Shown here: piece by piece, positions 4,796-64,000 of the stretch
Numbering within the stretch: position 1 is the stretch's first letter
Layout: each line of letters opens with the position of its first letter
Source of the DNA: Pseudidiomarina terrestris
GTDB taxonomy: Bacteria; Pseudomonadota; Gammaproteobacteria; Enterobacterales; Alteromonadaceae
Reading direction: 5' to 3'
DNA length: 64,000 bases
Assembly: GCF_030466405.1 (NCBI RefSeq)
Contig: NZ_JAGGJF010000005.1
Location: 62,001 to 126,000 of the forward strand
Notes under the pieces: model-generated
What the model saw: the letters and a program-made list of their open reading frames with translations, nothing else
Told to the model about the DNA's origin: nothing
The model's database searches: none
Made by a program: the position numbers and the translations under genes

Positions 4796-5593
4796 TTAAT
4801 TTAAGGTCGCCAGTTCAATCCGTGCCGCAGCACCATACAAAGGTCCTGAATCGCCTTCGACTTCACCGGTAGGCGTGATCGTTGGCCATAACTCAGGCAG
4901 TTTGGCTAAAATCTTGTTTACTTCTTCAATTGCCGCAGTATTGCCGGCCCGCTGGGTAGCCGTAAGCTCGTTGATACGTGCCTTGGCCATTTGGGTAAAG
5001 CCATAGGCATCCTGAAACTCATGTACGTTTACGACAGTGCCTTGTTTGACGCCGATATCATACTCTGCAGCGGCGGTTAACAGCATGGTACTTAAACTCA
5101 TCAAGACACTTTTCACGGACTTCTGCGGGATCTGTTCAGCTGCGGTAATGGCGGCCACCAGGCCATCGTAGGCGTTATTGACAGCGGCATCGCCTTGCTC
5201 GTCATTAACGGCATTCGCTAACGCGGTCAGTTCAGCTTCGAAACCGGCCACATTACGCGCCTGAAATGCAGGAACAAGAGCGGTATACAGCTCATCTTCA
5301 GGATGCTTCATATGCGTTTTTGCCATGGCCAGGTGGCCCTGGTCATAGAGTTTTTTGCCTACGTACAGATGACCACGGATCAAGCCAAGTTGTGCCAGAT
5401 AAGCACTGTCGTTGATACGTAAATCCACCGCACCTGAGCCTTCACCTTCGCCTTCACCACCGCCTTCAAACGGCGCGATGATGCTCATGCTATGATGCTC
5501 ATGTGCGGTAACTTTTAATTCGTCAGCCTGCAACGTGGAGCTGCCCACCAGGGCGGCTCCAACAGCAAGCCAGACTTTGCGCTTTTCGTTCAT
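4796..5593 (-). CDS. exported protein of unknown function, probably iron-regulated
   Basis: The 265-residue product has an N-terminal signal sequence (basic start, hydrophobic core, cleavage likely near STLQA-DE), then His-rich and Gly/Glu-rich segments (about residues 30-55). A mainly alpha-helical body with short motifs such as RGHLYVGKKLY and KTHMKHPEDELYTALVPAF follows. I recall similar unnamed proteins near iron-uptake genes, but I cannot name a family. Two ATGs are possible: 5599, where the AGAAGG sequence lies too close, and 5593, where it is spaced 7 nt. I chose 5593. The gene diverges from piuC across a Fur-box-like site, so iron repression is likely. A periplasmic metal-related role is inferred from this and from the His clusters. 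Confidence 0.7.
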   Translation of the reverse strand: MNEKRKVWLAVGAALVGSSTLQADELKVTAHEHHSMSIIAPFEGGGEGEGEGSGAVDLRINDSAYLAQLGLIRGHLYVGKKLYDQGHLAMAKTHMKHPEDELYTALVPAFQARNVAGFEAELTALANAVNDEQGDAAVNNAYDGLVAAITAAEQIPQKSVKSVLMSLSTMLLTAAAEYDIGVKQGTVVNVHEFQDAYGFTQMAKARINELTATQRAGNTAAIEEVNKILAKLPELWPTITPTGEVEGDSGPLYGAAARIELATLN

Positions 5594-6367: not shown

Positions 6368-6601
6368 ATGCAATGCATCTATCAAGCTGAGAATGTCGTT
6401 GAAGCCGAGTTGGTGAAAGGATTACTGGAAAGTCAGGGGATCAGCTGCCATAGCGGAGGTTTTTACCTGCAAGGCGCAGTGGGCGATCTTGCCGCATCGG
6501 GATTTGCTAAACTCTGGGTTGCCGACGATGACAGCGGCCAGGCGCTAGCTCTGGTTGAGCGTTACGAACGCGGTGAGTTCGCTATCACAGACGCTGATTA
6601 G
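6368..6601 (+). CDS. DUF2007 domain protein
   Basis: This 77-residue cytoplasmic protein consists of one DUF2007 domain. The start (YQAENVVEAELVKGLLESQGI) reads like the family pattern of a short ACT/PII-like fold that compares left and right halves of a peptide. The family is labelled putative signal-transducing, and no reaction is known. The start at 6368 has GAGGAATTG just upstream. The gene follows piuC by 10 bp and overlaps the end of the convergent fur gene by 4 bp, so it probably shares the piuC transcript. Confidence 0.75.
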   Translation: MQCIYQAENVVEAELVKGLLESQGISCHSGGFYLQGAVGDLAASGFAKLWVADDDSGQALALVERYERGEFAITDAD

Positions 6602-7680: not shown

Positions 7681-7896
7681 TTAAATTCCAGCTTCCCAAA
7701 TTACCTGAATGATACCTTTAGCGATAAAGCCGGCGCAGCCAAGGAACAACACCAACCATACAAACCAGCGACCAAACTTAGGAACCTTACTTTTATTCAG
7801 TACGTCCTGTATGGCGAGACCAATGAGAATAAAGAGTATTGCTATGGCAATGTTCGTGCCAAGAATCTCAATGGTTTCATAATGCTCTGACAACAT
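7681..7896 (-). CDS. DUF2788 small membrane protein
   Basis: This 71-residue protein has two predicted membrane helices (about residues 13-31 and 45-65) joined by a basic loop containing NKSKVPKFGRW. Its size, topology and position between fldA and ybfF match the DUF2788 family, whose function is not known. The start at 7896 has a GGTGG sequence about 9 nt upstream. The gap to fldA is 40 bp and to ybfF 54 bp, so it may belong to one ybfF-DUF2788-fldA transcript. Confidence 0.72.
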   Translation of the reverse strand: MLSEHYETIEILGTNIAIAILFILIGLAIQDVLNKSKVPKFGRWFVWLVLFLGCAGFIAKGIIQVIWEAGI

Positions 7897-61232: not shown

Positions 61233-62132
61233 GTGACAGCGCAGGAAAGCGAAGTCGATCTAACGACTCAAGTTGCGCGTGAATGCGCGCGGCAGCTGGG
61301 CTATTTATTGCAACACGAGCGAGCTGGAAATGGATTAGACCAAACTGAACTCGCTGCCCAGGTCCGCGCAATCGTCTACGACAACAAAAATGGGAAGAAT
61401 TTTATGCATACTGGAACCCCGACTACTGAACAGCCGCTGAAGCTTTATGAAGCATTGATGCTATTGGCGCTTTGTGAAGAGAAGGGCACCATGAATGGCG
61501 CTTATATCAATTACGGTGTGGCCGCCGCCATCCTGGCTGACCTGCTGCTGATGAAGCGCATCGAAGTGGATGCCGAGAATAAAGACAAAGTGCGGGTGCT
61601 CGATGACGCACCGACGGGTGACCAGGTGTTTGACGAAGCCCTCCAGAAGATGGCCACTGCGAAACGTCGTGGCAAATTGAAAGACTGGGTGATGCGCGTA
61701 GGAGCCATTCCTAAATTGAAACATAAAGTTGCGCAGGCATTGGTGGCGGACGGTATTGTTGAGCTGGAAGAGAAGAAGGTACTCTGGTTGTTTACCAAGC
61801 GGGTGTATCCGGAAGTGAATCCAGCACCGGAACAACATCTGCGGAGCGAGATGCGGCGGTTAATTCTTGATCGACCGCTGGAGATTGATCCACGAATAGC
61901 GGTCATTGTTTCCTTAGCCAAAGGCGCTCGTTTATTGCCGCAGGTCTTTAGTAAAGACGAGTTGAAGTCGAATAAAGAGCGAATCGAACAAGTGGTCAAC
62001 GGAGAGTTATTAGGTCAAACAGCAAAAGACGTTATCGCTGCCGTTGAAGTTGCAGTGATGATGGCCGCAATTATGCCGGCAATTATGGCTGCCAGCACCA
62101 GCGCAGCCACCAGCGGCTCAAGCAGCTGCTAA
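61233..62132 (+). CDS. GPP34/GOLPH3-like protein
   Basis: The 299-residue protein has an N-terminal extension of about 65 residues, then a GPP34 domain (about 70-265). The domain shows PLKLYEALMLLALCEEKG, GVAAAILADLLLMKRIEVD near residue 95, PTGDQVFDEALQKMATAKRRGKLKDWVMRVG near residue 127, and IDPRIAVIVSLAKGARLLPQVFS near residue 218. Eukaryotic GOLPH3 binds phosphatidylinositol-4-phosphate at the Golgi. Bacterial roles are not established. An Ala/Met-rich hydrophobic tail follows. The start is GTG with GGGAGGTGAG just upstream. It leads a three-gene group with gaps of 28 and 38 bp. Confidence 0.82.
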   Translation: MTAQESEVDLTTQVARECARQLGYLLQHERAGNGLDQTELAAQVRAIVYDNKNGKNFMHTGTPTTEQPLKLYEALMLLALCEEKGTMNGAYINYGVAAAILADLLLMKRIEVDAENKDKVRVLDDAPTGDQVFDEALQKMATAKRRGKLKDWVMRVGAIPKLKHKVAQALVADGIVELEEKKVLWLFTKRVYPEVNPAPEQHLRSEMRRLILDRPLEIDPRIAVIVSLAKGARLLPQVFSKDELKSNKERIEQVVNGELLGQTAKDVIAAVEVAVMMAAIMPAIMAASTSAATSGSSSC

Positions 62133-63593: not shown

Positions 63594-63652
63594 TTGACGT
63601 TTGGCAGTGTCCGCTAAGTGCCAATTGTGGACATTCAAACAAATGTGTCTTT

Positions 63653-63681
63653 TGAGCATGGCCTGAGCAATAACGTATAAT
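63653..63681 (+). promoter_or_regulatory. near-consensus sigma-70 promoter of the final transcript
   Basis: TTGAGC (63653-63658), a 17-bp spacer and TATAAT (63676-63681) form a strong promoter. Another TATAAT follows at 63684-63689. Transcription would begin near 63688, leaving a leader of about 250 nt before the next start codon. Confidence 0.7.
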
Positions 63682-63687
63682 GATATA

Positions 63688-63941
63688 ATACTGGAAGTTT
63701 GTTGTAACCTTTCACAAATGTACATATTTCGTAAAACAAAGGTTTTAACCTAGCATTCATACCATGAATGGCTGTACATAATTTTATAACCAAATCAAAC
63801 TGGACAGACCAGTAAGGTGTTATATACTTTTATTGTCATTAAACTTGGCTCCCGTCCAGATAACTGGACGGGAAACAGGGATAAGCCCTGCGACTTGAGA
63901 ACTTTCAGGATAGCTTGTTCCTTTATATTAAGGCAATAGAT
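63688..63941 (+). ncRNA. structured leader or non-coding RNA upstream of a truncated ORF
   Basis: This AT-rich stretch has no ORF but several clear stems: AACCTTT with AAAGGTT (63705-63744 region), ATTCAT-ACC-ATGAAT within 63752-63773, ACTGG-ACAGA-CCAGT (63799-63813), CCCGTCCAG-ATAA-CTGGACGGG (63851-63872) and CAGGG-ATAAG-CCCTG (63876-63890). There is no T-run after the last stems, so it is not simply a terminator. It starts from a strong promoter and ends next to an ORF. Known possibilities include a structured 5' UTR, a riboswitch, or the RNA of a retron, DRT or similar system. The family is not identified. Confidence 0.45.
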
Positions 63942-64000
63942 ATGCTGACACATTTTTCTGGACTTCAAAATAAGTACACCCATTTGAAAGATCTAGTGTG
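63942..64000 (+). CDS. 5' end of an ORF running off the window
   Basis: The ATG at 63942 has AAGG 8-9 nt upstream and opens a frame of 19 codons that begins MLTHFSGLQNKYTHLKDLV and has no stop before the window ends. No family can be assigned from so little sequence. Its importance is that it lies directly after the structured leader and about 260 bp after a strong promoter. Confidence 0.45.
   Translation, partial: MLTHFSGLQNKYTHLKDLV

Follow-up and report, generated by a model that had tools for sequence, protein, structure and literature searches.

The right edge of the window, by which we mean the whole 64-kb stretch of DNA that was analysed (host genome, 2.6 Mb), raises the question of what kind of gene stands behind a long leader there and what the leader does for it. 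A sequence-only reading had described a gene-free AT-rich stretch next to an ORF cut by the window and had likened the arrangement to retrons, DRT/UG reverse transcriptases or RNA-guided nucleases. The description itself is largely accurate. Positions 63682–63941 are gene-free with a G+C content of 0.358, compared with 0.518 for the window, and the ORF starts with an ATG at 63942 and runs off the window edge. Its continuation was read in a 19-kb stretch that extends beyond the edge (L002; adding 61999 to an L002 position gives the window position).

The encoded protein and its surroundings

63942–64000, on to L002:2173 (64172 in window numbering), plus strand: start of a stand-alone ORF of 76 residues encoding a GntR/FadR-type winged helix (ORF reading past the edge, Pfam)

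An ordinary metabolic gene, named by the sequence-only reading as the finding that would speak against it, is not what the extended ORF turned out to be. Pfam detects a GntR winged helix (PF00392) at residues 22–69 with an E-value of 2.8e-10 and 40.2 bits (cut-off 27). Since just 7 residues follow this match, the acyl-CoA domain, i.e. the C-terminal effector-binding and oligomerisation domain, is missing. FadR proteins are the best solved-structure matches in a sequence search, and a full FadR, present in the same genome, is 50% identical to the small protein over 46 residues. The window protein thus shares the winged-helix domain with the FadR subfamily of the GntR superfamily, and its unit has a FadR-like box in the promoter. 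In contrast to FadR, it comprises 76 residues in all without a C-terminal acyl-CoA domain, its unit has a structured leader of its own, and the readable relatives reside in a phage or beside phage genes. A G+C-rich hairpin lies behind the stop codon; terminator scans behind the ORF called no post-stop hairpin a terminator.

With this ORF identified, the proposed likeness to retrons, DRT/UG reverse transcriptases or RNA-guided nucleases had to be abandoned. The leader would be the non-coding RNA of such a system, which fits the order of leader and ORF as well as a SLATT_5 gene (L002:5122–5730, minus strand, E 2.4e-41) that lies 3 kb downstream on the strand opposite to the 76-residue ORF and matches PADLOC models for RT-associated SLATT proteins. 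However, the ORF encodes a GntR winged helix, and Pfam analysis of 13 distinct ORFs of L002 (the 76-residue ORF and 12 of the 28 listed for the stretch) revealed neither a reverse transcriptase nor a Cas/TnpB/IscB-type nuclease. A retron was rejected for want of an adjacent reverse transcriptase among these 13 ORFs and of an Rfam match in the window, a DRT/UG system because SLATT_5 alone is present in them, and an RNA-guided nuclease (TnpB, IscB or Cas) because the ORF beside the leader is the GntR protein. We regard this whole group of explanations as extremely improbable.

No phage genes were recognised around the window copy among 14 ORFs scanned. Upstream of the 76-residue unit are a GPP34 (Golgi phosphoprotein 3-like) gene at 61233–62132 (E 8.6e-48) and, behind it, genes for a NERD-domain protein and a cold-shock/DUF1294 protein. 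An ORF of 572 residues without Pfam match is located one ORF away from SLATT_5. Direct repeats occur between the minus-strand accessory ORFs (L002:4822–4893 and 7741–7812, 79% identical; 4995–5043 and 6497–6545, 73%), and GTTAGGC/GCCTAAC-like ends near L002 6584–6660 led us to consider an integron. Together with the repeats, they may mark a candidate cassette array.

Relatives of the small protein

Stand-alone relatives exist. The hypothetical protein AZU97337.1 of Alteromonas phage P24 (74 residues) is 43.4% identical over all 76 residues (E 8e-14) and is the sole one among 12 matching phage records to cover at least 80% of the query; its gene lies 1.6 kb beyond a phage integrase. Viral-contig protein searches found one relative in total, and two further searches gave none. 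This relative, on the IMG/VR contig L046, is likewise stand-alone and 80% identical to the P24 protein. Its leader is unreadable because the contig ends at the ATG. The third relative, in genome G124, comprises 79 residues with 53% identity to the window protein and is encoded on the strand opposite to adjacent genes for a P22-type portal and Phage_capsid_3; terminase-, holin- and lysin-like ORFs nearby were named from reading and not confirmed by Pfam. A broken FadR gene as the origin of the window ORF is disfavoured, since the domain recurs alone (74–79 residues) in P24, L046 and G124. Through these relatives, the window gene looks like a small, self-contained, phage-linked control unit.

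Among 59 genomes (own, genus, family and order), 52 match the 76-residue protein at E 0.001, and all matches except the own gene are frames of at least 213 residues, read as full-length FadR- or PdhR-like proteins. A search of 394 order genomes at E 1e-9 gave 305 with a match, where among the matches listed nearly all frames have the length of full regulators. At E 1e-14 the own gene was the only match in 369 class genomes, G124 alone matched among its 124 relatives, and protein searches of the genome contig set found no relative. Of the plasmid records, 511 match at E 0.01, and the best 20 of these are GntR-type regulators or unannotated.

A profile search of 395 family genomes at E 3e-13 matched eight: the own genome, G124, G749 and five (G175, G226, G583, G597 and G609) with proteins of 380–387 residues, in all five of which Pfam finds PIN_8 at the N terminus and GntR at the C terminus. 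In the genus of G175, 4 of 59 genomes match, all of them already known.

L082:3732–4886 (G175), L088:604–1767, L089:598–1758, L090:604–1764 and L086:1471–2613 (minus strand): PIN_8-GntR fusion loci (Pfam)

In G749, a GntR-domain ORF of 123 residues directly follows an AbiTii gene (PF18864, E 3.9e-35; L085:520–1746). By profile, the fusions and this ORF contain the same small GntR domain as the window protein. They differ in that it is fused to PIN in five of the eight family-level matches and stands behind AbiTii in one. Moreover, the 300 nt before each of the five fusions have no match to the FadR-like box described below with fewer than 3 mismatches, while AbiTii has one with 2. The fusions of G609 and G597 have a common upstream CCCTGTGA...TTAGGG, and that of G226 has CCCTAAG...TTTAGGG. 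The AbiTii pair of G749 sits behind a transposase-like ORF (named from reading), and a palindrome, TCTGGTGAAACCAGA, is located 95 nt before the AbiTii start.

Promoter region and FadR-like box

63652–63681, plus strand: promoter-like site TTGAGC-18-TATAAT of the sequence-only reading (promoter scan)
63754–63770, no strand: dyad CATTCA-tacca-TGAATG, found in altered form in the G124 leader (alignment)
63799–63813, no strand: FadR-like box ACTGGACAGACCAGT, palindromic over 15 bp, which overlaps the -35 part of the promoter-like TGGACA-16-TATACT
63818–63828, plus strand: -10-like site TGTTATATACT, with TGTTATTAT in G124 and TGGTAGAAT in P24

The near-consensus promoter reported before exists as a sequence, matching the consensus at 10 of 12 positions, but such sites are no commoner than in shuffled DNA (4 found, shuffle mean 2.1, sd 1.7; in a second scan 3 found, mean 2.4, sd 1.4), and this one lies outside the 210 nt compared with G124. 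The promoter is more likely located around 63799–63828, a region that aligns with G124. There, the -10-like site stands 124, 127 and 136 nt before the ATG in the window, P24 and G124, respectively; the pattern is loose, with a second P24 match at 150.

Allowing one mismatch, a search of the own genome for ACTGGWCNGACCAGT found this box, ACTGGACAGACCAGT, and no other site. The G124 leader contains a box as well, ACTGGTCGAACCAGT, in the promoter and 158 nt before the ATG. The P24 counterpart, ACTGGTCGGAGTTGT, is half a site only, with 3 mismatches, and equals chance matches in the same and in other upstream regions, so that the box is present in two of the three leaders (window and G124). Compared with the FadR operator consensus TGGT-Nx-ACCA, as given in PMC7797058, the window sequence TGGACAGACCA shows one departure, G124 matches in full and P24 has a half site at chance level. 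With up to 2 mismatches allowed, the backwards control gave more matches (44 and 43) than the pattern itself (15 and 9), so weak box matches mean little. Among seven weaker palindromic matches examined in this genome, two precede FadR-linked genes and five do not (genes named from reading). The two are ACTGGTCAGACCTCT, at a distance of 23 bp from a FadE-type gene, and ACTTGTCCGACCATT, at 83 bp from fadR.

As judged by eye, of the 8 DNA-contacting residues of FadR described in PMC7797058, the window protein keeps 6, the P24 protein 7 and the G124 protein 3. G124 hence combines the best box with the fewest contacts, which makes the host FadR a good candidate for occupying the box, at least in G124, and would argue against simple self-binding there.

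These observations bear on a plain explanation: the product is a small repressor that regulates itself, the box alone matters for control, and the hairpins of the leader do no more than shield the 5' end and slow translation down, without any switching. The position of the box inside the promoter in the window and in G124 agrees with it. A precedent is Stf76 of the plasmid-virus pSSVx, which, according to PMC4027180, is a winged-helix protein of 76 residues that recognises sites in its own promoter. The two are alike in size, fold and, on the side of Stf76, in the mobile element and the own-promoter recognition; Stf76 is archaeal, and it is likened here by description only. The plain repressor fits less well with G124, whose protein has lost most contacts, yet whose box has stayed. 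Taking the leader data given below into account, we consider this explanation possible, but rather doubtful.

Leader structure

63850–63873, plus strand: hairpin H1, 10 bp with loop AUAA, occurring once in the own genome
63876–63890, plus strand: hairpin CAGGG-AUAAG-CCCUG, an alternative to P1 and incompatible with it in the window sequence (predicted fold)
63878–63921, plus strand: P1/P2 domain, in which GGGAUAAG pairs with CUUGUUCC around an inner stem (folds, alignments)
63920–63933, plus strand: hairpin CCUU-UAUAUU-AAGG with the presumed ribosome site (predicted fold)

The perfect 9-bp stem noticed earlier is present as H1, although it has 10 bp and a loop of 4 nt. Its counterparts in G124 (12 bp) and P24 (9 bp) have unrelated arms; in the G124 leader an 8-bp hairpin overlaps the 12-bp one, which leaves two candidates for H1 there. 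H1 ends 68, 70 and 98 nt before the ATG in the window, P24 and G124, respectively. The regularity between window and P24 exceeds what a generic hairpin needs and thus speaks against the plain repressor. Perfect stems of at least 9 bp were obtained in 13 (145-nt window leader), 8 (P24) and 22 (G124) of 4000 shuffled leaders, and they are not rare in themselves, with nine in the 64-kb window.

All three leaders have the same order of elements, namely the -10-like site, H1, P1 and the ribosome-site hairpin. P1 comprises 8, 7 and 8 bp in the window, P24 and G124, with 28, 31 and 28 nt between its arms, and a stem of at least this length (G-U allowed) was in place in 133, 42 and 27 of 5000 shuffles. 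The ribosome-site hairpin has 4, 6 and 5 bp; from the presumed ribosome site to the ATG the distance is 8, 8 and 10 nt. No counterpart of the alternative hairpin CAGGG-AUAAG-CCCUG was seen in P24 or G124.

The claim of a structured leader in front of its own protein gene was borne out as long as H1 is included. Window stretches containing H1 fold better than shuffles (L002:1850–1948, z -5.0; L002:1831–1948, z -4.9; 263-nt leader, z -4.45), and across the leaders such stretches reach z -3.2 to -5.0. Without H1, the 75 nt of L002:1874–1948 have a z of -1.55, and 15 of 200 shuffles are as good; the P1/ribosome-site part of the three leaders (z -1.55, -1.74 and -2.00) thus folds little better than shuffles, which favours the plain repressor. 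The strong folding with H1, z about -5, might also suit a stand-alone regulatory RNA to which the ORF is secondary. Nevertheless, scans of the plus strand found nothing like a terminator between the leader and the ORF, and the similarity of window and G124 reaches across the ribosome site to just before the ATG, so we think such an sRNA very improbable.

The 5' arm of the ribosome-site hairpin overlaps the 3' arm of P1 by 2 (window), 5 (P24) and 1 (G124) nt. For the window, the predicted pair probabilities are 0.02 for P1 and 0.90–0.96 for the ribosome-site hairpin; for P24 they are 0.62–0.78 and about 0.22. In G124 both are predicted to be high except for one shared pair. When 118 nt of the window leader are folded, the best structure contains P1 and an inner stem instead. 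From the overlap and the predicted probabilities, mutual exclusion of P1 and the ribosome-site hairpin is plausible for the window and P24 and weak for G124. A predicted switch that is clear in P24 only again agrees with the plain repressor.

P1/P2 may also be an orphan riboswitch or a protein-sensing leader, which would bind a small molecule or a protein and thereby free or hide the ribosome site. This would account for the overlap in all three leaders, the predicted bistability of P24 (about 0.78 versus 0.22), the dependence of the best window fold on the stretch folded, and the motif AGGAUA with neighbouring unpaired letters that window and G124 have in common. No Rfam family matches the leader, in line with the sequence-only reading, which had recognised no known RNA motif: the window has no match at the gathering threshold, and other Rfam matches are far below it. 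However, the overlap in G124 amounts to 1 nt, the unpaired conservation has no clear extension to P24, the comparison comprises three sequences, and there is no ligand or protein candidate. A sensing leader is therefore, in our opinion, unlikely.

Comparison of the leaders

The regulatory regions of window and G124 are homologous, judging from the local alignment of the upstream 210 nt, which scores 59 compared with 22.4 (sd 3.8) for shuffles, none of 1000 being as good. P24 is supported by global comparison alone, in which 4 (window) and 5 (G124) of 1000 shuffles do as well; its local scores were equalled by 284 (window) and 54 (G124) of 1000 shuffles and are not significant. The P24 and window units thus agree in the full-length identity of their proteins and in the matching distances of H1, P1 and the ribosome-site hairpin, and they differ in that the P24 leader has diverged beyond local alignment, has only half a box and precedes a gene annotated as hypothetical. 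BLAST of the leader DNA against 196 family genomes reported only the own genome and G211, not G124. The G211 match of 38 nt lies upstream of a thioesterase-like ORF (named from reading) and resembles a FadR-type site. No match was found among plasmids.

The alignment of homologous leaders that had been suggested as a check on covariation gave a divided result: the layout is kept and the stem arms have changed yet remain complementary, but with three leaders at most, the counts on tool alignments are no better than shuffles. With helices registered by hand, a registration chosen for pairing, 60 of 60 cells are paired and 17 of 20 pairs have changed on both sides. This comprises H1 (27 of 27 cells, 9 of 9 pairs), whose pairing was given in advance because perfect stems were picked, P1 (21 of 21, 6 of 7) and the ribosome-site hairpin (12 of 12, 2 of 4). 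That P1 still pairs in this registration while most pairs change speaks against the plain repressor. In the MAFFT alignment, P24 is one base out of register and 79% of the cells are paired, with 108 of 500 shuffles as good. Window and G124 by themselves show 100% pairing with one two-sided change; column shuffles were as good in 243 of 500 cases, and slid partners scored far lower.

A covariance model (R1) was built from window and G124 alone. In a 601-nt stretch of P24 with filters off, its best match is the leader, ending on the ATG (13.4 bits, E 0.022); with default filters in 81 kb, the P24 leader was missed. Among 395 family genomes, four have a match at E 0.05, of which the own genome and G124 are real. 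The other two (G174 and G030) were discarded, as no winged-helix gene follows the match. Scans of viral contigs for the leader pattern yielded 14 stretches in one scan; of the 26 stretches in a second scan, none is matched by R1 at E 0.5, and none encodes the protein. Taken together, the P24 leader fits with the other two by its layout and one weak covariance-model match, and an RNA structure common to all three leaders is likely, though not proven.

Proposed unit and its meaning

We propose that the locus is a monocistronic phage-type "moron", in which a FadR-like protein acts at the promoter, the leader gates translation and the product is a FadR-like protein blind to acyl-CoA. A moron is an autonomous unit with a promoter, an ORF and a terminator of its own that stands among phage genes. 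In our judgement this proposal has an even chance of being correct; our confidence is reduced because the P24 box is no better than chance and the P1 part alone folds weakly. A FadR-like protein, be it host FadR, the product itself or both, would set transcription by binding the box at 63799–63813. The transcript would start near H1 and carry the folded leader; there, P1 may compete with the ribosome-site hairpin, which would throttle or switch translation. Consisting of a FadR-type DNA-binding domain alone, the product would recognise its own box and perhaps FadR sites of the host as well, and without the acyl-CoA domain its DNA binding should be unresponsive to acyl-CoA. We infer box occupancy, autoregulation, translational gating and an effect on host fatty-acid genes from the features described above.

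In its boldest form, the unit would be a new phage-carried RNA switch that converts the fatty-acid status of the host, via host FadR at the promoter and a signal at P1/P2, into an acyl-CoA-blind FadR mimic, by which the prophage reprogrammes host lipids. We think this improbable. A literature search found, among the titles and abstracts listed, no account of phage stand-alone FadR-like domains or of such a leader, a weak negative since subscription papers were mostly outside its scope.

Stand-alone FadR-type domains in phages, a box resembling that of host FadR in two of three leaders and an apparently kept fold would link the prophage to host fatty-acid regulation. The occurrence of the same small domain in fusion with PIN_8 and behind AbiTii suggests a DNA-binding module that serves several accessory systems.
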